Below are positions 2,770-26,260 of a stretch of 42,339 bases of DNA, in pieces. A model generated the notes under the pieces. It saw only the letters and a list, made by a program, of their open reading frames with translations, was not told the origin of the DNA and did no database searches. The stretch is from positions 1 through 42,339 of IMG/VR virus record IMGVR_UViG_3300031224_000021, one strand, 5' to 3'. This DNA comes from a virus. Numbering within the stretch: position 1 is the first letter of the stretch; each line of letters starts with the position of its first letter. A program made the position numbers and the translations under genes.

Positions 2770-3819
2770 TTATGCTTTTTTGATCATTGGGATTATGTCA
2801 TTAGCCAGTGTAACTGTAACATTTGATCCAATTTGGATATCGTTAACAACCAGGTATTGAAGGTGATGACCTGATGCTCTTTGTATTTTTCTACCATCAA
2901 CTATGATTGGCATAAAATAAACTACTGGGGTCCATCTTCCTGTCTTATTCATATTCCATTTAATATCAGTAACGGTTGACTGCATAGTTGGTGCCTTAAA
3001 TTTAATAGCAACTGCATGCTTAGGATATGTACCGTTATGTAATACCTTTTTGACACCTATTGTGTTAAAAACAATACCATCTGTACCAAATTGGTACTCT
3101 TTACGTCTTTGTGCCATACTGGCAAATGATGTTACTAATTGGTCCGGGGTGGTGCAATTGGTTATTTCTTTACAGGTAAATTCAGGAAACATGTCTAAGT
3201 CTAATATTTCACCAGTTGGTGTAACAGACTCTAACATAATTGGTATAAGATCATGTTTTCTAACATCATCTTTGTTAATGTCATTAACTATGCCAGCAAC
3301 CAGATTTCTAGAGTGTGAATACTTATCTGAATATTTACTTTCGAATACTCTTTGATTCATAACCATTTCAAAACGAATACCAACATGGTCTTTGTAACCA
3401 ATACATTGTGGAAATAATGAAGCCAATTTTGCATGGACATTAACACCCATGTTGCCATCACCTCTGGTGGAAACCATTTCTAGTTTACCCATTTTGTAAC
3501 TGGCTTCAATTGCAACACCATCATATTTCCAACTGAGTTGGCCTGGACCAATACGATCAAATAAGGCCTGTGCAGTTTCATTTGACATACCATTTGTTTC
3601 CACTTTAGTCTTAGAAAGACTTAACATTCGATGGCCATGCTTAACCTTTCTTTCTGTTGATACCTCTTGGTAACCAACCGTTGGATCAAAACCTTGTTCT
3701 ATAAGTTCATCTTCTAAAGAGTCAAATTCATCATCTGATATAATAGCTTCTCCTTGATAATATGCATCTTTTGCTATATAGTATAGATCAACTTTAGCCT
3801 TGTAGTCTGATTGTGACAT
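2770..3819 (-). CDS. ligA: NAD-dependent DNA ligase, adenylation/OB subunit
   Basis: This is the first half of an NAD-dependent DNA ligase, which seals nicks using NAD as cofactor. Residues 12-42 match the Ia domain that binds NMN (YYIAKDAYYQGEAIISDDEFDSL). The adenylation motif is KYDGVA with the nucleophilic Lys at residue 98. STRGDG at about 117-122 matches the next nucleotidyltransferase motif. The C-terminal OB fold is clear: TGRWTPVVYFMPI, then IQRASGHH, then ANDIIPMI, compared with TGxxTPVAxxxPV, VxRATLHN and AGDVIPxI of LigA. At 349 aa it stops right after the OB fold; HhH and BRCT are encoded at 1584-2411. An 18-bp palindromic promoter lies 18 bp before the ATG. Confidence 0.92.
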   Translation of the reverse strand: MSQSDYKAKVDLYYIAKDAYYQGEAIISDDEFDSLEDELIEQGFDPTVGYQEVSTERKVKHGHRMLSLSKTKVETNGMSNETAQALFDRIGPGQLSWKYDGVAIEASYKMGKLEMVSTRGDGNMGVNVHAKLASLFPQCIGYKDHVGIRFEMVMNQRVFESKYSDKYSHSRNLVAGIVNDINKDDVRKHDLIPIMLESVTPTGEILDLDMFPEFTCKEITNCTTPDQLVTSFASMAQRRKEYQFGTDGIVFNTIGVKKVLHNGTYPKHAVAIKFKAPTMQSTVTDIKWNMNKTGRWTPVVYFMPIIVDGRKIQRASGHHLQYLVVNDIQIGSNVTVTLANDIIPMIKKA

Positions 3820-4357: not shown

Positions 4358-4666
4358 TTACAACTCTCTCCTGACGTGGCCGGCCTCAATGGCAGACTGA
4401 AACTTTGACAGCCCCATAGTTATCTTTTCTTTCTTTGTGCCAAGATAGTCTAAAAACTGAATAATGCCTTCACTGTAGCCTAAAAATTCAAAGCTGTTTC
4501 GCCATTCGCCCTTGTCAACAACAATTAGTTTATCACCCATTTGTAACTGGACATGACTGGTAACAGGTTGACCAAATTGCCCCTTGGTTAGGCCAGGGCC
4601 TATGCTCATTCCGTCTAGATCGATGGCCTCAAATGATTCGTTAATGTGACTGCTTAGTGACTTCAT
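4358..4666 (-). CDS. Predicted packaged (internal head) protein, 102 aa, paralogue of 4963-5286
   Basis: Begins MKSLSSHINE|SF, the shared capsid-targeting propeptide; the predicted cut is after INE, residue 10. The remainder is a near-paralogue of the product of 4963-5286: GPGLTKGQFGQPVTSHVQL pairs with ANGLKKSDFGDLVTSIQDL, MGDKLIVVDKGEWRNSFEFLG with LGDSIIIVNRSDNEWRDQVEFLG. This looks like a small beta-barrel (GDxIxVV...EW...xEFLG). The paralogues flank two very small genes. By analogy with T4 internal proteins it would be packed in the head and injected, but the cargo function is unknown. Confidence 0.75.
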   Translation of the reverse strand: MKSLSSHINESFEAIDLDGMSIGPGLTKGQFGQPVTSHVQLQMGDKLIVVDKGEWRNSFEFLGYSEGIIQFLDYLGTKKEKITMGLSKFQSAIEAGHVRREL

Positions 4667-4801: not shown

Positions 4802-4963
4802 TTAGGTTTTAACTGCTATTGCACCAAAGCTGCCATTAATCATATCGCTATTAATATGATCAGGTTTGTCTAGCAAGGTATAGTCAGGGAAGTCAACCCG
4901 CCATTGTTTGTTAGCAAACTTAAAAATAAGTTCGTTAAAATAGTCAAGCATAATTTGACGCAT
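4802..4963 (-). CDS. Small hypothetical protein, 53 aa
   Basis: Its ATG overlaps the TAA of the preceding packaged-protein gene by one base (TAATG), so it is probably translated by re-initiation. The product begins MRQIMLDYFNELIFKFANKQ and continues WRVDFPDYTLLDKPDHINSD. The predicted amphipathic N-terminal helix is followed by an acidic segment. No homology recognised. The exact stop-start junction is the main support. Confidence 0.6.
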   Translation of the reverse strand: MRQIMLDYFNELIFKFANKQWRVDFPDYTLLDKPDHINSDMINGSFGAIAVKT

Positions 4964-5286
4964 TATTTCTTTTTGTATACGAAACCAAGACTAATGTCTT
5001 CTAAGAACCAACTGTATCTTATTTTCACCTTTTCATTATTGCCACCATAAGTAAACAATAATTGGACAGCATTACCAGAATCACCTAAAAATTCAACCTG
5101 ATCTCGCCATTCGTTGTCTGATCTGTTTACTATAATTATGCTGTCTCCTAGCTTTAGGTCTTGTATGCTAGTGACTAAGTCACCAAAGTCACTCTTTTTC
5201 AGACCGTTTGCTAAACTTAAGCTGTCAATCTTAATGTTATTTTGCGGTCTGAAAGATTCGTTTATGTGTTTGCTAAGTGAATTCAT
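4963..5286 (-). CDS. Predicted packaged protein, 107 aa, paralogue of 4358-4666
   Basis: Begins MNSLSKHINE|SF, a capsid-targeting propeptide variant with Asn at position 2. Body clearly related to the product of 4358-4666 (see there), including GDSIIIVN, EWRDQVEFLG and a C-terminal YSWFLEDISLG against LSKFQSAIEAG. The paralogy implies a local duplication that was later separated by insertion of, or birth of, two small genes. It is 12 bases downstream of the cysteine-peptidase-like gene. Confidence 0.75.
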   Translation of the reverse strand: MNSLSKHINESFRPQNNIKIDSLSLANGLKKSDFGDLVTSIQDLKLGDSIIIVNRSDNEWRDQVEFLGDSGNAVQLLFTYGGNNEKVKIRYSWFLEDISLGFVYKKK

Positions 5287-5631: not shown

Positions 5632-6035
5632 TATGCGATTGCTTTTGTGTTAATCATATTTTCATAGAGCCACATTATTGATATGGTGCGTATTCTGTTA
5701 CCAACTTTACTAAAACTAATTGGGTTATTTTCTCCATTTGTGGTAAAAAATACTCGTTTTGATTTAAAGTCTATTATAACAAAAGCAGATGTTCCAAAAA
5801 TTGAAGATCTTTTTGTTTGTACAGTGAATATCATTTGATGTTCAGGTAACTGAATGTGACCTGTTAACTCTTGGTCTATTTCTGACAGTCTATGTAACAT
5901 ATACATTGAATACTTTTCGGTAGTACCAGTATGGCTAAATGTTCCAACAAAATTATCAATGTTTTTGTTGTTATCGATAACGTTTTGGCTAAATAATTCG
6001 CCCCAGGTGGATAATATTGAGATTGACGTGTTCAT
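5631..6035 (-). CDS. Hypothetical protein, 134 aa
   Basis: Not recognised. Mixed alpha/beta composition with a central strand-rich part (HQMIFTVQTKRSSIFGTSAFVIIDFKSKRVFFTT) and a helical C-terminus (RTISIMWLYENMIN). First gene after the palindromic promoter at 6059-6096, with a leader of 23 bases between the palindrome and its ATG, so it leads a short operon with the peptidase-like gene and the packaged-protein gene at 4963-5286. Confidence 0.7.
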   Translation of the reverse strand: MNTSISILSTWGELFSQNVIDNNKNIDNFVGTFSHTGTTEKYSMYMLHRLSEIDQELTGHIQLPEHQMIFTVQTKRSSIFGTSAFVIIDFKSKRVFFTTNGENNPISFSKVGNRIRTISIMWLYENMINTKAIA

Positions 6036-8544: not shown

Positions 8545-9021
8545 TTAAATTTCTGAATTTTTGACTTCTACACTATTGCCATCTTGTAAATCAAGCATGT
8601 AACTGTCTTTTAATATTAGTGTAACTGTGCCACTTTGGCCTGACCATTTACCCATCTTTACAGTCACTGTGTCACCTTGACCTATGCCTTCTGTTACCGC
8701 TTCTGTTACCGGGTCTTGCAACCAACGCCCTGACTGTTTAGCCCTGCCTGATATTATTGCCTGAAAGTCAGACTTTGACATATCAGTCCACAGTTCAAGT
8801 GTCTCTTCGTCCCATTTTGCAACCGCCTGTTTTGTCTTAATACTTAATAAAATATCAAGGCCACTGTCGGTAACTGTTCTCAAAGACCTGTTTGTTGCCT
8901 TGGCTATTTTAACAAATGTACGCCATTCATGTGGCATTATTGTAAAACGATTGCCAAGAATGTCAGACTCGTTAACGGTTGTCGCCAAGGTCTCTGTAAG
9001 GTGTTTACTTAATGATTTCAT
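8545..9021 (-). CDS. Predicted packaged protein with KOW-like C-terminus, 158 aa
   Basis: The start is set at 9021 because it gives MKSLSKHLTE|TL, a member of the shared propeptide family, and an A-rich leader with AACTATG; the frame upstream to 9072 overlaps the gene before it. The last about 45 residues (GQGDTVTVKMGKWSGQSGTVTLI, then YMLDLQDGNSVEVKNSEI) match a KOW/SH3-type barrel, as in NusG and ribosomal L24, suggesting RNA, ribosome or polymerase contact. The middle is helical (HEWRTFVKIAKATNRSLRTV). Cargo likely released by cleavage after LTE. Confidence 0.75.
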   Translation of the reverse strand: MKSLSKHLTETLATTVNESDILGNRFTIMPHEWRTFVKIAKATNRSLRTVTDSGLDILLSIKTKQAVAKWDEETLELWTDMSKSDFQAIISGRAKQSGRWLQDPVTEAVTEGIGQGDTVTVKMGKWSGQSGTVTLILKDSYMLDLQDGNSVEVKNSEI

Positions 9022-9048
9022 AGTTGTTTTGCCTAGTAATTTCGTGTG

Positions 9049-9085
9049 TTTATCAATAGTTGACTTTATCAATAGTTGACTTTAT
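9049..9085. repeat. 16-bp tandem duplication at a gene 3' end
   Basis: The unit TCAATAGTTGACTTTA occurs twice in a row (period 16). It covers the stop codon region of the gene at 9053-9457. As a result the codons for IKSTIDK at the end of that protein are repeated out of frame just after its stop, which creates a false upward extension of the next gene. This looks like a recent replication slippage. Confidence 0.8.
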
Positions 9086-9457
9086 GTCTTGTATGACATT
9101 ATCGTCGATGCTATATAGCGTAGTATTATCTAGTTGCAAAGTATCTCGTGGATCAATTTTGAGATTAGGGAATCGTTTAGCAAAGTCTGCTAATTCTTGT
9201 CCTGCCTTGTCCAAATCTTTAATAATTATGGATTCTGCACCACCTTTTTTGTCTTGCTTAACAAAACTGGCAAGATTACGTTTGTTATTAGACGTGATCG
9301 GTACAATAGCAATGCTAACAGGTTTACGTCCTGTCGGTTTAGTTTGACCTGGACGCATAATGTTAATCATTTCAGTATAGACATAGAGATTGATAATCTC
9401 TTGCCCTGCTTCATCAATTTGAAACGATTCTGTAATGTGTGTGCTTAATGATTTCAT
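9053..9457 (-). CDS. Predicted packaged protein, 134 aa
   Basis: Begins MKSLSTHITE|SF. The body has an alpha/beta pattern: INLYVYTEMINIM, GRKPVSIAIVPI, ESIIIKDLDKAGQELADFAKRF, then a basic C-terminus. No known domain seen. The leader at 9458-9508 is almost pure A on the minus strand with three copies of a 10-base AAAAAAGAAC-like unit; it nearly matches the leader sequence that has become coding inside the fused gene at 11310-12362. Confidence 0.75.
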   Translation of the reverse strand: MKSLSTHITESFQIDEAGQEIINLYVYTEMINIMRPGQTKPTGRKPVSIAIVPITSNNKRNLASFVKQDKKGGAESIIIKDLDKAGQELADFAKRFPNLKIDPRDTLQLDNTTLYSIDDNVIQDIKSTIDKVNY

Positions 9458-9508: not shown

Positions 9509-10108
9509 TTAGCTATAGTAGACACATTCGGAGCCCTTATCACCGCCGGCACTCGCGCCTATTTGTATGTTTAACTTATTCCCAAACTGAGATAGGGCCG
9601 CAATGATCTTATCTGCCATTTCGTCATCGTAACCACGACCTAGAGCAAATCCAATAGTGTTGTCACCGTCTGTTACGATAAAACTTGTATACACTACAGC
9701 GTCATACAAGGCCTTGCTAATATCTAAAGCGCTAATACCTCTAACTGGTTCAGGTATTTTAAGTATCGATATAGAATCTAACGTCAACGTAATATTACCA
9801 ACGAATTTATTTCGACCATTTCTACTAGAGACAGCAAACAATTCACCCATTATATAATTGCCTTGCGGTTTTACATTTTTAACTACTGTTCCTTTTTCAA
9901 TGATAGTAGGTACAACACCAAATGGATTAGGGCTAACGACTACTTCATCATATCTGTCGAAGTCTTCTTCTGAGATTTCTTTAAAGTCTGTGCCTTCTCT
10001 TAAGTCTTTAGTAATGACTAAATCAAATCCACTTTTGGCTGCTGACTTGACATCTTGGACAGCTTCGTTGACGAATGATTCTGTAATGTGGGTGCTTAAT
10101 GATTTCAT
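9509..10108 (-). CDS. Predicted packaged protein, 199 aa
   Basis: Begins MKSLSTHITE|SFVNEA; cleavage after ITE expected. The first half has GFDLVITKDLREGTDF, an acidic segment (EISEEDFDRYDEVVVSPNPFG), then a strand-rich part (GTVVKNVKPQGNYIMGELFAVSS) resembling a small barrel. The second half (LDISKALYDAVVYTSFIVTDGDNTIGFALG, then DEMADKIIAALSQFG) is alpha/beta. No domain identified. Nucleotides of the first about 12 codons are almost identical to those of the neighbouring genes, pointing to recent spread of the propeptide cassette. Confidence 0.75.
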   Translation of the reverse strand: MKSLSTHITESFVNEAVQDVKSAAKSGFDLVITKDLREGTDFKEISEEDFDRYDEVVVSPNPFGVVPTIIEKGTVVKNVKPQGNYIMGELFAVSSRNGRNKFVGNITLTLDSISILKIPEPVRGISALDISKALYDAVVYTSFIVTDGDNTIGFALGRGYDDEMADKIIAALSQFGNKLNIQIGASAGGDKGSECVYYS

Positions 10109-10126: not shown

Positions 10127-10450
10127 TTATTCCTTAAAACCAGAACTTAGAACAACAGTCCTACTGCTATCAGATTCAAACAGGTTGCCGTTAACTGGTA
10201 CAACAACGTATTTTAAACGATAGTGCTTACGTTCTCCGGGCGACATTGATTTATTCATTCTTTTTGCTTTCGCCGTGGCGTCTTCCTTACTGAACAGCTG
10301 TTCATCTTTTGGTACCGGCATGCCCTTAAATTCCCTAGCGTTTGACGGTCTTGGCTTGTCGCCTATAGAGCCTCCTGTTAACATAACAGCAAACATGCTA
10401 TTTGACTCGTTGACAAATGATTCTGTAATATGTGTGCTTAATGATTTCAT
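10127..10450 (-). CDS. Predicted packaged protein, 107 aa
   Basis: The start at 10450 gives MKSLSTHITE|SFVNES; seven extra codons up to 10471 are in frame but overlap the preceding gene and lack the conserved leader. Body: SMFAVMLTGGSIGDKPRPSN, then a basic segment (SKEDATAKAKRMNKSMSPGERKHYRLKYVVVPV). This helix-loop with many Lys/Arg and the final strand pair are compatible with a small nucleic-acid or protein-binding fold. Not recognised. Confidence 0.75.
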   Translation of the reverse strand: MKSLSTHITESFVNESNSMFAVMLTGGSIGDKPRPSNAREFKGMPVPKDEQLFSKEDATAKAKRMNKSMSPGERKHYRLKYVVVPVNGNLFESDSSRTVVLSSGFKE

Positions 10451-10467
10451 AGTTGTTTTTATTTGTG

Positions 10468-10824
10468 TCATTTATCTATTGATATGTTAAAGTTATAATC
10501 AGTGTTACCAGGTAATTGAAAACTTACGTTATGCTTTGCCAAGTCATTACCTAGTCTTTTAAAACTAATACCACATGATCTATCAAAATAAAAAACGATT
10601 TGCTTACCTGCATCCCATATACCATGTATACTATAGTCTGGGCTACCTACTTTAAAACTATCTTCTATAATACTTTGCATATGTGGATAAACTTGTATGA
10701 TCTCTTTGTATACTTTAAAATTATGTGTAGGATTACCGTTCTGTGCTTCTGTAAAATTATCGTCTTTCATTTCGTTTAGCAAACCGCCGAATGATTCTGT
10801 AATATGTGTGCTTAATGATTTCAT
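10468..10824 (-). CDS. Predicted packaged protein, 118 aa
   Basis: Begins MKSLSTHITE|SFGGLL. A second LNE at residues 16-18 (GLLNEM) could be another (L/I)xE cut site. Body is alpha/beta: IQVYPHMQSIIEDSFKVG, then SIHGIWDAGKQIVFYFDRSCGISFKRLGNDLAKH, then a beta ending (VSFQLPGNTDYNFNISI). This reminds me of small phage proteins with one helix packed on a sheet, but I do not recognise the family. Spacing of 17 bases to the preceding stop contains the conserved AACAACT leader. Confidence 0.75.
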   Translation of the reverse strand: MKSLSTHITESFGGLLNEMKDDNFTEAQNGNPTHNFKVYKEIIQVYPHMQSIIEDSFKVGSPDYSIHGIWDAGKQIVFYFDRSCGISFKRLGNDLAKHNVSFQLPGNTDYNFNISIDK

Positions 10825-10842: not shown

Positions 10843-11292
10843 TTACATGTTAAGTACGGACATACAAAACCATTCTAAACCGTAGTCAAACATACTGTCA
10901 TCACCTACTGGTGAACCTTGCTGATCTTTAATGTAAGTCTTTGCTTGTTGTGGCAATGCTTTCATGTAGCCTGCTAGGTCAGAATCATCAGTCTCTTGCG
11001 TCATTATACAACCGACTATTGTGTCGAAGTGCTTACGATCCGAAGCGCTAATTTGTTTAAACTCTGGAAAAGAAACAATAGCTAATTTATATAAATCTGC
11101 AGCAGCCTGTATTTCGTCAGTTCGCCAAACAATTTCTAAAGTGTGTGATAACCAGCGACCAGCATTCATATATTTAGGGTCGTTTTTATTGTCAAGACCA
11201 GCCGGGTTATCTGATAACCATTTTTCATAGTTTGGAGCCGTAACCTTGCTGAAACTAAATGATTCTGTAATGTGTGCGCTTAATGATTTCAT
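10843..11292 (-). CDS. Predicted packaged protein, 149 aa
   Basis: Begins MKSLSAHITE|SF. The body is mainly helical: NYEKWLSDNPAGLDNKNDPKY, RWLSHTLEIVWRTDEIQAAADLYKLAIVSFPEF, DRKHFDTIVGCIMTQETDDSDLAGYMKAL, and ends YGLEWFCMSVLNM. No catalytic motif stands out. Its spacing to both neighbours (17-18 bases) matches the rest of the array. Confidence 0.75.
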   Translation of the reverse strand: MKSLSAHITESFSFSKVTAPNYEKWLSDNPAGLDNKNDPKYMNAGRWLSHTLEIVWRTDEIQAAADLYKLAIVSFPEFKQISASDRKHFDTIVGCIMTQETDDSDLAGYMKALPQQAKTYIKDQQGSPVGDDSMFDYGLEWFCMSVLNM

Positions 11293-11309: not shown

Positions 11310-12362
11310 TTATTTTATTGCTTCAGGTAATGCTATTTCTTTACTAAATCGATATGTTTCTGCCTGTTGTCTTGAGACGTTTGTGCCTGCTTCAAATTTA
11401 TGTAGCTCTTGTACACTGTTAAATATTACAGGGCCATCTGTTTCATAACCACGAAAGTATGCCATATACGTAGCTCGATCATTTTGTAACTTTGTCAATA
11501 CAAACGTTTGAGATGACTTTTTGTTGTAATATCTAGGCCAACCTGATACCATTTCACTAGCCTCGTTAACTAATGATTCGGTGATATGTGTGCTTAATGA
11601 TTTTATAGTTTTCTTTTTCTTTTTGTTATTTTTTGATTCAGCAACATAAGGGTCTCTAATATCAATATCACCATTGGACATTGACTTAGTAACTTTATCA
11701 ACTTGTTCTGGTTCTATTTTTGGCATGTCCTTTCGGGCCGGTGCACCAACTGGAGGCTTTGCAGCTTGTAGCATAGAAAGTCTTTTTGATATAGTACTGG
11801 CACCAATGCTTTCGTACCAATCAATTGCTTTTTGTTGGTTGTAAAATGCAACATCCATGCCTTTACCTTTGTAAATGCTGTCTTCAATATCTGAAACTGT
11901 CGCCTTAAATACGTTAAGGTCACCAGAAACCTGATCGTTGCCTCTTTTGTTACCATAATTGTCACCAGCTGCACGAAGTACTGGTATAAGATCACCAATT
12001 GTCATGTTAGCTTTGCTAACATCTAGTATTGCATTAGGATTATTAAACATCGTAGCAGCCCATCTATGGTGACCGTCTAGTATACGATTTTCTTTACTAA
12101 CAATACTGCCAAGATCACCACCAGAAACACCACCAATCGCCATGCTTAAAGATTTACCTAAGTAAACAGCATCTTGTGAAGCAAGAAGCTCTTTTGCTGA
12201 TATTTTAACTTTTACTGTCTTAACAATGTCATCGACCTTGTTACCATCTCGTTGACCCTTGCTGAAAAAGTCACGATCAGTTTTGCCGCCGTTCGGAAAA
12301 CGGGTAGCATCAACATCTTGTGTAGCCAATTTTTCGTTAATGTATGAAGTTATACTTTTCAT
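11310..12362 (-). CDS. Fused packaged protein: ParB-like cargo plus a second cargo with an internal propeptide
   Basis: The N-terminus MKSITSYINE|KL is a propeptide variant. Residues about 45-130 contain a ParB/sulfiredoxin-superfamily pattern, with SKENRILDGHHRWAAT (the DGHHR motif) followed by helices. About residues 225-252 form a linker (DPYVAESKNNKKKKK). At codon 253, minus 11606-11604, the sequence TIKSLSTHITE|SLVNEA repeats the propeptide, with ATA where other genes have ATG. The bases coding KNNKKKKK are almost identical to the noncoding leader of the gene at 9053-9457. So two genes were joined by loss of a start codon and readthrough. The second cargo is about 90 residues (GWPRYYNKKSSQTFVLTKL, then HKFEAGTNVSRQQAETYRF). 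If the head protease cuts both sites, one chain gives two cargos. Confidence 0.8.
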   Translation of the reverse strand: MKSITSYINEKLATQDVDATRFPNGGKTDRDFFSKGQRDGNKVDDIVKTVKVKISAKELLASQDAVYLGKSLSMAIGGVSGGDLGSIVSKENRILDGHHRWAATMFNNPNAILDVSKANMTIGDLIPVLRAAGDNYGNKRGNDQVSGDLNVFKATVSDIEDSIYKGKGMDVAFYNQQKAIDWYESIGASTISKRLSMLQAAKPPVGAPARKDMPKIEPEQVDKVTKSMSNGDIDIRDPYVAESKNNKKKKKTIKSLSTHITESLVNEASEMVSGWPRYYNKKSSQTFVLTKLQNDRATYMAYFRGYETDGPVIFNSVQELHKFEAGTNVSRQQAETYRFSKEIALPEAIK

Positions 12363-19612: not shown

Positions 19613-20359
19613 TTAGCCTTTTATGAATTTTTCGTATGCTCTATTTGTGCTTTTGCTAGGTCTAAAGTCTACATTTTTGTCTGCAACTACTTTTGATGCA
19701 ATTGTAAAGCCGTATTTATCCTGTAGCTCTTTTAGCATTATATGTGCTTCTGCTGTGTCTTTTAGCCACATAATGTCGATGTCTACTGCTATGGTGTATG
19801 GTTTGTATAGTACTAATGATGATATGTCCTCCATACATTGTTTCATAGCAGAAGTTTGTTTACTGTTTACACGAAGTGGCATGTCTGTGCCAATTATATA
19901 CGATGCTGCAGCAATAACACCATATAAAGAGTTGAGTATGTATCTTGCTACATAGTATGCTCCAGCGTTTTCTTGGACCTTTAGTATTTGTATGTTGTCT
20001 AGTAGCCAAATATACATTTTGTCAAAATTTGGTCTGTTTGTTTCTAATAATTTGTTGATAAACATGTGCCTAAATATCGTAGGGTACATGTAGTTGACAT
20101 CAACGACAAGGTGATTGTCTGCTGTTGCAAGTCTGTTACGTGTAAAGTCATCTAGCCGCATAGGATATACAGGCATCATAGTACTGTTATGTTCAGCGGT
20201 TTCTGACATATCCAAACCTAGTGCCTTTGCTACATCTGTATACAGGGCACCAAATGGCTTTGTTTTTATTTTAGTGCCATTTTTGACTAGGAAAGTATGT
20301 ACGTGTCTGTCTAGTGCTTTGACCACTTTGTCGATTATTTCTTGTTGAATTTCATTCAT
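19613..20359 (-). CDS. Miniature family B DNA polymerase-like protein, 248 aa
   Basis: All three family B palm motifs are found in the right order in a very short protein. Motif A: VVDVNYMYPTI with D87 and Y92 (compare DxxSLYPSI). Motif B: ARYILNSLYGVIA with R139, N143, Y146, G147 (compare KxxxNSxYG; the Lys is Arg here). The following MPLRVNSKQTSAMKQCMEDI resembles the segment after motif B in RB69 polymerase. Motif C: AVDIDIMWL with D193 and D195 (compare YGDTDS). The carboxylates for two metal ions are thus kept. There is no 3'-5' exonuclease and little thumb. It could be a reduced polymerase, a subunit of a split polymerase, or a remnant with another role. Normal family B enzymes have about 600-900 aa. 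Confidence 0.75.
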   Translation of the reverse strand: MNEIQQEIIDKVVKALDRHVHTFLVKNGTKIKTKPFGALYTDVAKALGLDMSETAEHNSTMMPVYPMRLDDFTRNRLATADNHLVVDVNYMYPTIFRHMFINKLLETNRPNFDKMYIWLLDNIQILKVQENAGAYYVARYILNSLYGVIAAASYIIGTDMPLRVNSKQTSAMKQCMEDISSLVLYKPYTIAVDIDIMWLKDTAEAHIMLKELQDKYGFTIASKVVADKNVDFRPSKSTNRAYEKFIKG

Positions 20360-21764: not shown

Positions 21765-22358
21765 CTATCTTTTTGGTTGTATTGTGCCAAACATCATTTT
21801 CTTGTGGACTTCTTTGCCAGCTCCACCTAAAATTCTACTATAAGTATACACATCATGTGCAGTTAGTTCCCTACTGGTCAGTATAGCTTGAGCTTCTTTA
21901 ACAGTTAATCTATATTGCTTAAATTCCTGAGGAAAACCTTTACGTAAAAAATCAAGCATGCCACCAGAAACTTCCATAATACTACGTTTAAAGTCGTCTT
22001 TAATCATATTCGAAAATTTCTTTTTTGCCATTGCTTTAGTTTCAGGGTCTCTTAGTATTCCACCTGCTGCCATTTTTCTAAATGTGACACCGTTAGGGGA
22101 TTCTTGCTTAAATTTGTACAAAATCACAGCAAGTACTTTACCGTCTACAATGTCAAGTTTCCAAAATGGAATACGTAACATGTCTTGTTTAGACGCAAAA
22201 CCAGAACCTTTTATGCCACCTTGACTGGCATATGCATCTTTAAGCAATTGCCAAACTTGGTCAACCATTGCTGTCTTTTTATCTAGATCACCAGCTAATA
22301 AATTTTGAACAGATTCATTAACTAATGATTCGTTAAGTCTAACTCTTAGTGATTTCAT
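21765..22358 (-). CDS. Predicted packaged protein, 197 aa
   Basis: Begins MKSLRVRLNE|SLVNESVQ, a divergent propeptide with LNE as cut site and a SLVNE continuation like in the fused gene. The body is helical and basic: KKTAMVDQVWQLLKDAYASQ, VKEAQAILTSRELTAHDVYTYSRIL, KKFSNMIKDDFKRSIMEVSGGML. LDIVDGKVLAVILYKF suggests one sheet. No domain identified. The minus strand has TATATAATCTAAAAAG just before the ATG, the same motif as at 12372-12400. Followed by a strong terminator, so it is a single-gene unit. Confidence 0.75.
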   Translation of the reverse strand: MKSLRVRLNESLVNESVQNLLAGDLDKKTAMVDQVWQLLKDAYASQGGIKGSGFASKQDMLRIPFWKLDIVDGKVLAVILYKFKQESPNGVTFRKMAAGGILRDPETKAMAKKKFSNMIKDDFKRSIMEVSGGMLDFLRKGFPQEFKQYRLTVKEAQAILTSRELTAHDVYTYSRILGGAGKEVHKKMMFGTIQPKR

Positions 22359-22398
22359 TTTTTCTTTTTAGATTATATATCAATAGGTTGTAATTAAA

Positions 22399-22546
22399 AG
22401 CTATTGTATTACTAAACAGCTATTGTATTACTAACAGCTATTGTATTACTAACAGCTATTGTATTACTAAACAGCTATTGTATTACTAACAGCTATTGTA
22501 TTACTAACAGCTATTGTATTACTAAACAGCTATTGTATTACTAAAC
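22399..22546. repeat. Minisatellite: 8 copies of an 18/19-bp unit at a gene 3' end
   Basis: Unit AGCTATTGTATTACTAAAC (19 bp) or the same with one A less (18 bp). Copy lengths in plus order are 19, 18, 18, 19, 18, 18, 19, 19, so there is also a 55-bp higher order (19+18+18). The unit at 22528-22546 and part of the one before it code for the last residues (FSNTIAV and stop) of the hydrolase gene; the other copies lie downstream of the stop. Variation in copy number would not change the protein, since the first unit brings the stop. Confidence 0.9.
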
Positions 22547-23049
22547 AGTACCATGTCTTTAATATAGCGGCTAAAACCGAGTACTGCATGGCCTCCTGGT
22601 ATTCTTTTTACTTCAGTTGACCGTAATACTTGACCTGGTATTTCTGAATAGTCTAATATTTCATCCTCTCTTGGCAGCAATAGCATAGCATCATTTAATG
22701 TTGCAACTGTGACAATTTGATCAATTATGTTTTTGGGTAGAATAGAAGAGTCAATAAGCTGTTTTGTATTAAAAATTGGTGCAATTATTATTAACTTACA
22801 CCATGAGTTTGCCTTTGTTATTTCAGTTCTAAATTGTAAAGCGAGGTTTGAACCAGCAGAGTCACCAATAATCAATACATCTTTAGTAGACGTTGACATT
22901 TCAACTGCTAAAGTTTTAATTCTTTGACTTAGTTGCTTTTCTGTTGGTGTCCAATAAAAACATTTTGCCTGAGGCCATTGCTTTTGTATTGCTAAAAATT
23001 TAGGTGACTGAGGTCCACTGTTTAGACCGTGAAAATATAGTACTTGCAT
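22522..23049 (-). CDS. Small alpha/beta hydrolase (YqiA/RBBP9-like), 175 aa
   Basis: Begins MQVLYFHGLNSGPQSPKF, the typical strand plus HGLxSxPxSxK start of YqiA-type esterases. The nucleophile elbow is GDSAGSN (Ser about residue 65) after VLIIGD. A Glu/Asp-rich part (LLPREDEILDYSEIPGQVL) and the last His in PGGHAVLGF (about residue 154) can complete the triad. The substrate is unknown; related proteins cleave short acyl esters. The end of the gene is inside the minisatellite at 22399-22546. Single gene after a palindromic promoter. Confidence 0.8.
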   Translation of the reverse strand: MQVLYFHGLNSGPQSPKFLAIQKQWPQAKCFYWTPTEKQLSQRIKTLAVEMSTSTKDVLIIGDSAGSNLALQFRTEITKANSWCKLIIIAPIFNTKQLIDSSILPKNIIDQIVTVATLNDAMLLLPREDEILDYSEIPGQVLRSTEVKRIPGGHAVLGFSRYIKDMVLFSNTIAV

Positions 23050-24119: not shown

Positions 24120-25382
24120 TTAGTTTAAGTTTTTAAACAGTTTTTTCATGTTGTTAACCATGCTATCAATTGCAACAGCTTGTTCTTTACCAATAAGGCT
24201 ATTTATTTTATCGACTGACGCCTTGCTATTTAATTCTTTGTAGTATTCACCAACTTTAATATTTAAAAGTCGACCAATTTTGCTTGCTAATTTAGTGTCC
24301 ATAAACTTAGACATCATTTCTAATCCATCAACTCGAAAAAAGTAGTCTTGTTCGGTTGATAAGTTTAGCATTTCAAATTCTTGAACGAGACTGCCCCCTA
24401 ATTGATCAATTGCCTGTTTAACTTTTTCTTGGTCTGCATCAGTAAATAGATGCAAATACGCCAAAAGATTTCTATTAAAACCTTTAGCAAATAGTATAGC
24501 CTTAACTTGCTTTTTATCTTTAAGCAATGAGTCTGTACCATATTCACTTGAATACTTATCATCTCTTTCTGGTTCTAAAAATTGACCTGCTTTAGTTATT
24601 GCGTCATAACTGTCCATTGTGCCCGTTTTAATCACCCAACTTGCACTTGTCATGCCACCAGAAAACATTTGAAATAGGTGTTTTCTAGAATCGTCATTCA
24701 ATTGCTCTTCATAATTAGCTAAAATATGTTCTAGCATTGAGTAGTCCATTTGTTGACCAAGACCACTTTTTATCTTTCGCTGTTTCATGACATATTCGTT
24801 TAGGTCTACAATATCTTTAACACCTTGTCTGTGTGGCTTAAACGTTTTTAAAATCTTAACAACATAGTTACCAGCTGGCAGTATAAGCTCGTCTTCTTGA
24901 CTAACGTGTGGCACTAGACTAACGTCTATTGCCTGTTCTCGCCTAATAACCGTTTCAATGATAACACCATATCCTTGCGTATAGTCTTTTACTTTTCTTC
25001 TTTGATCTTCAGACTTAAAAAATTCACGACCAAGCAGCATAATGTTATTTGTTGGTGATGTTAAGGCAAACTGTTGTGCAGTGTCGACAGATCGAGTCCA
25101 GCTAGTATAGCCTGACAGGTCTATTTTGTTACTTTTGATGTCAGCAACAAATCCTTTGTAACTTTCAATATCCCTAAAAAATAGACCTCTGAAAGCAAGC
25201 ATCTTTTTTTGATTTGGGTACTTTTTTAGTAAAGAATTTAGTGCAGCCGGGTCAATGAACCCAACACTTGCGTCATAGACATATGCTGCCAGTTTTCCTT
25301 CTGGCTCATGGTCATCATAGTATGATGACCATTGACCTTCTGCGACAAGAGATTCAGTAAGATGTTTACTTAATGCCTTCAT
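24120..25382 (-). CDS. Predicted packaged ADP-ribosyltransferase, 420 aa
   Basis: Propeptide MKALSKHLTE|SL, then an ART domain of the R-S-E class. R65 in LAFRGLFF is the NAD-binding Arg; YTSWTRSVDTAQQFA (about 92-106) is the STS-like strand; SQEDELILPAG has the ExE motif with E163 and E165. The order and spacing match T4 Alt/ModA and VIP2-type toxins. T4 Alt is also packaged, injected and modifies host RNA polymerase, so this is a likely functional analogue. Residues about 200-420 are helical (EHILANYEEQLNDDSRKHLFQ and others) and may guide packaging or targeting. It heads toward a hairpin terminator and follows two other packaged-protein genes. Confidence 0.85.
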   Translation of the reverse strand: MKALSKHLTESLVAEGQWSSYYDDHEPEGKLAAYVYDASVGFIDPAALNSLLKKYPNQKKMLAFRGLFFRDIESYKGFVADIKSNKIDLSGYTSWTRSVDTAQQFALTSPTNNIMLLGREFFKSEDQRRKVKDYTQGYGVIIETVIRREQAIDVSLVPHVSQEDELILPAGNYVVKILKTFKPHRQGVKDIVDLNEYVMKQRKIKSGLGQQMDYSMLEHILANYEEQLNDDSRKHLFQMFSGGMTSASWVIKTGTMDSYDAITKAGQFLEPERDDKYSSEYGTDSLLKDKKQVKAILFAKGFNRNLLAYLHLFTDADQEKVKQAIDQLGGSLVQEFEMLNLSTEQDYFFRVDGLEMMSKFMDTKLASKIGRLLNIKVGEYYKELNSKASVDKINSLIGKEQAVAIDSMVNNMKKLFKNLN

Positions 25383-25393
25383 ATTGTAAAGTT

Positions 25394-25846
25394 TTAGGTT
25401 AAATCTATACTAAGAGTTCCTGTCTTTGCAGACCATTGCATTTTAGATTTATCTATTTTAACTGCTGTCATCTCATCTTTTATTGTTTCAATCTCATCAT
25501 CAGACATTCTGGATGACTTAAATTTTAGATATAAAGCAGGGTTACCGTTTGCTGCGGTTGACAATTTAAATGATAACGATTTAAAGACATCCTGTCTACT
25601 ATTAACATATTTGACCACCGAATTATTAGCATCGACTGCTTTCCTATTTTTTTTAACTGCTTGCAGTTTGTCTACGTCGACGTTTAAAGACTTGATGTCT
25701 TCTTCTTTTGATTTTTTAGTAGATAGGTCAGCAATAACACGATTAATATTGTTAATTTGCTGATCAACTACAATATTTAAGTCGAGCACACACATCACAG
25801 ACTCGTTAACAAACGATTCTGTGATGTGTGTGCTTAGTGATTTCAT
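25394..25846 (-). CDS. Predicted packaged protein, 150 aa
   Basis: Begins MKSLSTHITE|SFVNESV. Body: an LNIVVDQQINNINRVIADLS helix, a charged coiled-coil-like segment (KKSKEEDIKSLNVDVDKLQAVKKNRK), then a compact alpha/beta C-terminus (PALYLKFKSSRMSDDEIETI, SKMQWSAKTGTLSIDL). No family recognised. DNA of the propeptide is close to that of the array at 9-11 kb although it is 14 kb away. It lies 11 bases before the ART gene. Confidence 0.75.
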   Translation of the reverse strand: MKSLSTHITESFVNESVMCVLDLNIVVDQQINNINRVIADLSTKKSKEEDIKSLNVDVDKLQAVKKNRKAVDANNSVVKYVNSRQDVFKSLSFKLSTAANGNPALYLKFKSSRMSDDEIETIKDEMTAVKIDKSKMQWSAKTGTLSIDLT

Positions 25847-25891: not shown

Positions 25892-26260
25892 TTATGCTCT
25901 AATTTTTCCTGCTTTCCAGTCTTTATAGACGAGAGCAAGATCACCAACAACAGAACCAGTAGAACCCATGTAGTCATCAGCCTTATTGTCAAGTTTAACC
26001 GTTTCACCTACTGCAGTCTCTATTGACATTGTTACGTTTCTGTCTGCTGTATATTCTATCATATCGCCATTACTAAATGTAACGGTTACGTCTGTTTCAC
26101 TGTCGCTTATTGTACCAGTTACTTCAGACATAGTAATTTCTGTCGTAATTTTAAACTTTCGTTGTGCATTTTTTTCTGATGCAGCATCGAAAGGTGCAAT
26201 AACATCAAGGTCAAACTTTACTGTTGCTGCTTCGTTAATGTAAGATTTTAATGATTTCAT
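25892..26260 (-). CDS. Predicted packaged protein, 122 aa
   Basis: Begins MKSLKSYINE|AA, a variant close to MKSITSYINE of the fused gene. The body is nearly all beta: FDLDVIAPF, KFKITTEITMSEVTGTI, DVTVTFSNGDMIEYTADRNV, ETAVGETVKLDNK, suggestive of an Ig-like or barrel fold, and ends with DWKAGKIRA. No motif of function. First gene of the three-gene packaged unit that includes the ART; a poly-T run (plus 26261-26272) gives an A-rich leader. Confidence 0.7.
   Translation of the reverse strand: MKSLKSYINEAATVKFDLDVIAPFDAASEKNAQRKFKITTEITMSEVTGTISDSETDVTVTFSNGDMIEYTADRNVTMSIETAVGETVKLDNKADDYMGSTGSVVGDLALVYKDWKAGKIRA

Follow-up and report, generated by a model that had tools for sequence, protein, structure and literature searches.

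The window, the whole 42.3-kb stretch of DNA that was analyzed, is a virus record that represents an incomplete genome. On its minus strand, at 19613-20359, lies an open reading frame (ORF) of 248 amino acids that begins with ATG. A previous sequence-only reading had reported this ORF, which is present where it was placed, but did not state its strand. In frame, the codon log-odds amount to 0.241 per codon, similar to those of the neighboring genes, and they are negative in all five alternative frames (-0.021 and -0.110 in the other two minus-strand frames); the plus strand opposite the gene is stop-rich throughout. By codon use the ORF is coding. Its features are as follows.

19613..20359, minus strand: predicted palm/fingers mini-protein of 248 aa derived from family B DNA polymerases (PolB), from translation, family profile and leave-one-out searches, and codon usage
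20102..20359, minus strand: N-terminal 86 residues preceding the motif A Asp, from translation by eye and alignments
20072..20107, minus strand: motif A, VVDVNYMYPTIF, residues 85-96, from translation and from alignment to DFNSLYP (LR745206) and to the PolB motif A in Protein Data Bank (PDB) entries
19919..19948, minus strand: motif B, ARYILNSLYG, residues 138-147, from translation and alignments
19766..19789, minus strand: motif C, AVDIDIMW, residues 191-198, with D193 and D195, from translation and alignments

The three motifs can all be read in the translation in the claimed order. The main metal ligands of PolB enzymes are the motif A Asp and the second motif C Asp. Motif A of the window protein reads DVNYMYP, compared with D-x-x-S-L-Y-P in PolB, and the metal-binding Asp is present as D87, a predicted metal ligand. 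Motif B (R139-YIL-N143-SLYG, ending in Y146 and G147) differs from the PolB pattern K-x3-N-S-x-Y-G by the conservative Lys to Arg change at R139 that had been noticed previously, the remainder being intact. Motif C (VDIDIM) retains both Asp residues of the PolB pattern Y-x-D-T-D-S in an altered context, and the earlier remark that the YGDTDS setting is gone is correct. Motif A is separated from motif B by 52 residues, and motif B from motif C by 54. With 86 residues preceding motif A and 56 from motif C to the end there is no room for an exonuclease or a thumb in this chain. No exonuclease motifs were recognized by eye in the N-terminal 86 residues, which show little conservation in alignments of the family members described below, and a KKxY hairpin, with which the PolB palm ends, is not clearly recognizable there. 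The protein had been described as lacking an exonuclease and as about a third of the normal size, which agrees with 248 aa compared with the 898 aa of T4 gp43. AlphaFold2 models made from two and four sequences had pLDDT values of 39.1 and 41.7, too low for use.

A second contig, G001 (49.8 kb), belongs to the same virus (99.95-99.99% identity) and adds 18 kb beyond window position 1. The window genes match those of the Tenacibaculum phage PTm1 and, more weakly, those of PAU, pT24 and MA9V-1, and encode a ribonucleotide reductase, a UvsW-like helicase, a single-strand binding protein, a RuvC-like resolvase and a split NAD ligase. The two parts of the NAD-dependent DNA ligase gene (2770-3819 and 1584-2411) have a small gene between them; the parts are about 15 kb apart in PTm1, and the ligase is a single gene in PAU, pT24 and MA9V-1. 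An AT-rich palindrome-like repeat near TTGTTATATATTTATATAACA lies just upstream of the window genes that start at 6035, 18777, 21566, 23049 and 24014, similar repeats are present in the extension contig, and the element is perhaps a phage promoter. Self-matches revealed short tandem repeats at 22395-22548, on the coordinate-start side of a UPF0227-like gene (22522-23049, minus strand). About 13 window minus-strand proteins share a leader like MKSLSTHITESFVNE at or near the N terminus and are, by eye, unrelated beyond it. The leader-bearing genes, identified by eye, are listed here.

4358-4666, 4963-5286, 8545-9072, 9053-9457, 9509-10108, 10127-10471 and 10468-10824, minus strand: leader-bearing genes
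10843-11292, 11310-12362, 21765-22358, 24120-25382, 25394-25846 and 25892-26260, minus strand: leader-bearing genes, continued

We take the MKSLSTHITESFVNE leader to resemble the capsid-targeting leader of T4 internal proteins, and by this analogy the proteins may be packaged in the virion. Similar leaders (MKYLKSFNES) are found in the uncultured phage LR745206.

When searched alone, the window protein matched no Pfam family, and neither PHROGs nor the PDB offered a convincing hit. Such single-sequence nulls are weak evidence, since Pfam also misses the genuine ReqiPepy6 PolB (E 0.0072, below the cut-off), and a PF03175 search of the virus's own record, which gave no match, is uninformative because the controls were likewise silent. 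Against 50,697 phage records, tblastn with the window protein produced only two weak matches (E 0.03 and 0.1), which are hypothetical proteins of 287-288 aa in MA9V-2 and MA9V-1; among 2,578 ORFs the window/MA9V match is reciprocal, with E about 3e-6. A 263-aa ORF of PTm1 has the same layout with a weak score (E 0.15, 2,578 ORFs), and its best phage match beyond PTm1/PTm5 is the polymerase portion of ReqiPepy6 (E 0.2). A profile run over 50 phage records, most of them collected via the N-terminal replicase part Pol-N, gave one match, in LR756501 (E 1.6e-4; L186:844-2214, equivalent to LR756501 497200-498570). The LR756501 protein then led to LR756504, and the next profile to LR745206 and from there to LR756502. 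The last two encode the most canonical members: the LR745206 protein has DFNSLYP, DAD and KKRY within 216 aa, and that of LR756502 has the canonical motif C YIDTDS and RKRY within 210 aa.

The family thus assembled consists of seven lineages, namely the window virus, the Tenacibaculum phages PTm1/PTm5, the Chryseobacterium phages MA9V-1/-2 and four uncultured phages of 630-735 kb (LR756501, LR756502, LR756504 and LR745206). Its members are 210-290 aa long, except for that of LR756501 with 456 aa. A profile of eight trimmed cores, each beginning at motif A with the start chosen by eye, returned exactly the seven known records from 44, with a single copy in each; it detected no member in PAU, pT24, LR756500 and Lak-B6, nor in 33 other IMG/VR records, many of which are fragmentary. 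Scans of the collections for near relatives returned only the same virus, only PTm1 itself, or no match. A DNA pattern for motif B picked out the same virus and no other in viral_contigs; in genome_contigs it found 20 loci, with the peptide present in eight and a polymerase-like context, judged by eye, in none. A second LR756501 match (431894-432079, E=6.1e-4) was dropped, its ORFs being without PolB motifs by eye, as were four first-look candidates after inspection (pT24:86137, PAU:201664, L047:560 and L059:7805). The mini-protein family is rare and stand-alone, with one copy per genome, in jumbo phages and mega-phages that have a split replicase. We found no description of it in the open-license literature, including the accessible portions of a 2021 jumbo-phage survey (PMC7824862) and of a 2024 paper on polymerase swapping (PMC11348598). 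It is apparently a hitherto undescribed branch of mini-PolB proteins, which may be described outside the open-license literature.

The evidence for PolB descent comes from profiles. When the eight-core profile was compared with 177,635 PDB sequences, the top 37 of the 42 matches at E<=10 were all family B polymerases, the best being 5mdn_A (E=4e-6), and the best matches align in register from motif A through KKRY. The other five are non-polymerase proteins, four telomere-binding protein beta sequences and one KaiC (E 0.034-1.5). Without the two most canonical members, the resulting six-member profile gave three PDB matches at E<=10, all PolB (E 0.98-1.9). A leave-one-out profile made from the other seven members recovers the window protein among 6,937 ORFs with E=8e-16, and the same procedure recovers MA9V-1 (5e-12), MA9V-2 (5e-11), PTm1 (2.2e-5), LR756501 (1.4e-13), LR756504 (5.4e-11), LR745206 (1.2e-13) and LR756502 (4.4e-8). 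The three best non-family ORFs for the six-member profile, of 8,449, are all PolB (P162 5.8e-4, Scarif 0.11 and ReqiPepy6 0.13). Non-PolB sequences, for example L163:10408-10887 (160 aa, E 0.0012-0.12), are also among the top-scoring ORFs outside the family in the leave-one-out searches, and such rows alone are therefore not proof. When profiles were compared with those of ReqiPepy6-type PolBs, the register came out correctly, but at a probability of only 16% (P=0.0016). Together, the PDB profile match and the leave-one-out recovery establish PolB descent for the family and the window protein at the level of sequence profiles, and they also show that the motif pattern is not due to chance. The sequence-only reading had said that it would fall if profile searches gave no family B hit: single-sequence searches were indeed empty, but the family profile matches PolB. 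Its miniature PolB core was right as to descent, the predicted protein consisting of a palm and short fingers without exonuclease or thumb.

The compact PolBs of the ReqiPepy6/Lactococcus P162 type (PHROG 4210 and 1252) are the best non-family profile matches among the 8,449 ORFs. They have motifs B and C in register and share with the family a 'YGY/YGF' after motif C. However, they are parts of 600-1300-aa enzymes in which an exonuclease or a primase domain is also present and motif C is of the TDS type, whereas the mini-proteins, at 210-290 aa (one of 456), are without any extra domains.

The active site varies across the family. The motif A residue is Asp in the window virus, PTm1 and LR745206 (3/7 lineages), Glu in MA9V-1/2 and LR756504 (2/7) and Ser in LR756501 and LR756502 (2/7). 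For LR756504, Glu is obtained if IEL rather than a VDINPDY further upstream is taken as motif A, a choice favored by the spacing to motif B (51 residues, compared with 68 for VDINPDY), and motif A of PTm1 can be aligned either ungapped or with two inserted residues. At the motif B Lys position, four lineages have the Lys itself; the window virus and MA9V have Arg there, and LR756501 has Asn. The motif B Asn (N143 in the window protein) and the second motif C Asp (D195) are retained in all eight proteins, and the latter suggests that metal binding still matters; the first motif C Asp is retained in six and is Ser in both MA9V proteins. Variants of KKxY are KKRY in LR745206, KKDY in LR756501, KKKF in LR756504 and RKRY in LR756502. 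In a tree based on a motif-anchored alignment of 244 columns, in which some nodes are weak, LR756502 groups with LR745206 (90%) and LR756501 with LR756504 (only 55%). Because the members with Ser are on separate branches, the change of the motif A Asp looks recurrent across the family, a view to which the tree gives modest support.

Core identity is 13-28% across lineages and 84% within the MA9V pair. Such very fast divergence, together with domain loss and a patchy presence (by profile the gene is absent from PAU, pT24, LR756500 and Lak-B6), would be expected if the gene were a decaying, functionless remnant of a second polymerase gene. We consider this very improbable, since the ORF is intact and single copy in 7/7 lineages, the motif C Asp and motif B Asn persist in 8/8 proteins, and dN/dS is 0.12-0.13 in two independent pairs: 0.116 for the MA9V-1/-2 mini-proteins and 0.132 for the LR756501 member and its IMG/VR relative. 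The two genes following the MA9V member have values of 0.107 and 0.091. As judged from these substitution rates, the mini-protein family is under purifying selection.

It had been proposed that the rest of the genome be searched for a full polymerase or its missing parts. One part was found outside the window: a Pol-N of 500 aa (L005:2039-3541, minus strand, in G001), which shares 48% identity with the gene that is annotated as DNA polymerase in PTm1, is matched by PF00136, and stops after its motif A, SDFSALYPRLMQSYNMS, before motif B. Matches to Pol-N are present in all genomes that encode a mini-protein. The C-terminal part, Pol-C, was not found in about 60 kb of sequence of the window virus. 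In relatives of the window virus it is encoded by a separate gene and has motif B, YxDTDS and KKxY; in complete genomes it is 400-470 aa long and located near Pol-N.

PAU: Pol-C, gp110
pT24: Pol-C, HYP10_gp168
MA9V-1: Pol-C, MA9V1_138
PTm1: Pol-C in two pieces

The two PTm1 pieces (NC_049340 168659-171501, gp239/gp241) flank a gene annotated as VSR endonuclease, and the first, gp239, is annotated as intein-containing, so that the PTm1 replicase is spread over at least three genes. In G001, Pol-N is followed by a dUTPase, recognized by eye and position, as in PAU, and the contig ends short of the position where PAU has Pol-C.

That the mini-protein is itself a piece of the split replicase, the missing C-terminal partner of Pol-N, was among the earlier suggestions. 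The window-virus Pol-N does end between motifs A and B, and its Pol-C is the part that was unfound. Nevertheless we regard this explanation as extremely improbable. The replicase of these Bacteroidetes jumbo phages (PTm1, PAU, pT24 and MA9V) belongs to the same superfamily and occurs in the same viruses, but it is encoded separately, elsewhere in the genome, with Pol-N comprising the exonuclease and motif A, and Pol-C comprising motif B, motif C, KKxY and the thumb; the mini-protein has motifs A, B and C alone, including a motif A of its own, and no thumb. Moreover, PTm1 and MA9V-1 carry a true Pol-C near Pol-N and the mini-protein elsewhere, so the mini-protein coexists with both replicase halves, and the contig of the window virus ends before the PAU-type Pol-C position downstream of Pol-N and dUTPase.

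The reading we prefer, at about an even chance, is that the mini-protein descends from PolB and serves replication or repair as an accessory protein, with possible residual activity in the window member. The loss of the motif A Asp in some lineages, together with the lack of thumb and exonuclease, argues against a shared polymerizing role, and the conserved job of the family would be independent of nucleotide addition. The retained D195-type Asp and motif B Asn, together with purifying selection, suggest that the palm may still bind metal, nucleotide or primer-template. Most likely the palm would bind primer-template, dNTP or metal, or else the split replicase itself, and the mini-protein would act as an accessory subunit in replication or repair. 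Catalysis would have been lost in some lineages (motif A Asp to Ser) and altered in others (Asp to Glu), and the window member, with its three active-site Asp residues intact, may retain weak, distributive activity. Among the roles suggested by the sequence-only reading, a catalytically altered regulator fits the family best, while its small active enzyme may apply to the window member. It does count against the accessory reading that the window protein retains all of D87, D193, D195, N143, Y146 and G147; if catalysis did not matter in this virus, such complete retention would be surprising.

The same residues, with three catalytic Asp and an intact motif B NSLYG, are what would be expected of an active minimal DNA polymerase without exonuclease, performing short distributive synthesis (across lesions, in gaps or from primers at damaged forks) and inactivated only in side lineages. 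This is the main competing explanation, albeit a somewhat unlikely one. PTm1 and LR745206 also keep the motif A Asp, the latter in a near-canonical protein of 216 aa, and the window has repair genes for an Fpg-like glycosylase and an SbcD/SbcC-type protein (the latter identified by eye). A precedent is the crenarchaeal Dpo2, which, in the available text of its description, lacks an exonuclease and has the first Asp of the PolC motif substituted; this PolB was once predicted to be inactive, yet it is needed for damage tolerance (PMC7390963). As described there, PolB2/Dpo2 resembles the mini-protein in its small size, its lack of an exonuclease, its altered catalytic motif and its occurrence alongside a full replicase; comparing by description, the change of the first motif C Asp is shared with MA9V and not with the window protein. 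Against a minimal polymerase stand the absence of a thumb to grip primer-template, the replacement of the motif A Asp in four lineages (Ser in 2/7, Glu in 2/7), the Arg (window and MA9V) or Asn (LR756501) in place of the motif B Lys, and the unclear KKxY of the window protein.

A bolder proposal, which we hold to be rather unlikely, is that these are the smallest natural PolBs, free palm-finger enzymes of 210-250 aa that would copy DNA despite having neither thumb nor exonuclease, with Pol-N, the clamp or the single-strand binding protein supplying the grip, as a second polymerase dedicated to repair or primers, some lineages turning into a dead replisome subunit through the change of the motif A Asp to Glu or Ser.

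For the accessory role that we prefer, other polymerases offer parallels. According to the accessible parts of the respective sources, the C-terminal module of Pol epsilon (PMC2669801) and the poxvirus protein F12 (PMC4304020) are inactivated PolB proteins kept for another role. Compared by description, they share with the mini-proteins PolB descent, lost catalytic residues and a new role; they differ in retaining inactivated exonuclease and polymerase domains, where the mini-proteins are confined to palm and short fingers and include members that look intact. The divPolA2 of barbaviruses, as far as the consulted text describes it, is likewise an extra polymerase core without thumb and exonuclease beside a PolB replicase, but belongs to family A rather than B (PMC11348598).

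A role outside the replisome, linked to the virion or to DNA injection, with at least one relative packaged or capsid-associated, comes into consideration through the 456-aa LR756501 member. The C-terminal tail of this protein repeats a stretch located close to the beginning of another ORF of that phage, 608 aa long, which we take to be a gp23-like major capsid protein. However, the capsid identification was made by eye, no comparable tail was seen in any other lineage, including that of the window protein, and a virion role is in our judgment improbable. As a separate observation, a 157-aa ORF of LR745206 carries the LR756501 tail stretch, and tail-related loci are L192, L193 and L191.

The mini-proteins add to the family B polymerases a compact branch that appears to be reduced to the palm and short fingers. 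In several of its lineages the motif A Asp has changed while the remaining palm has been kept, and the family may thus provide a natural series in which to ask how far a PolB can be reduced and still work, and what purpose a non-catalytic palm serves. One more gene related to PolB, annotated as hypothetical, is retained by giant phages whose replicase is split.
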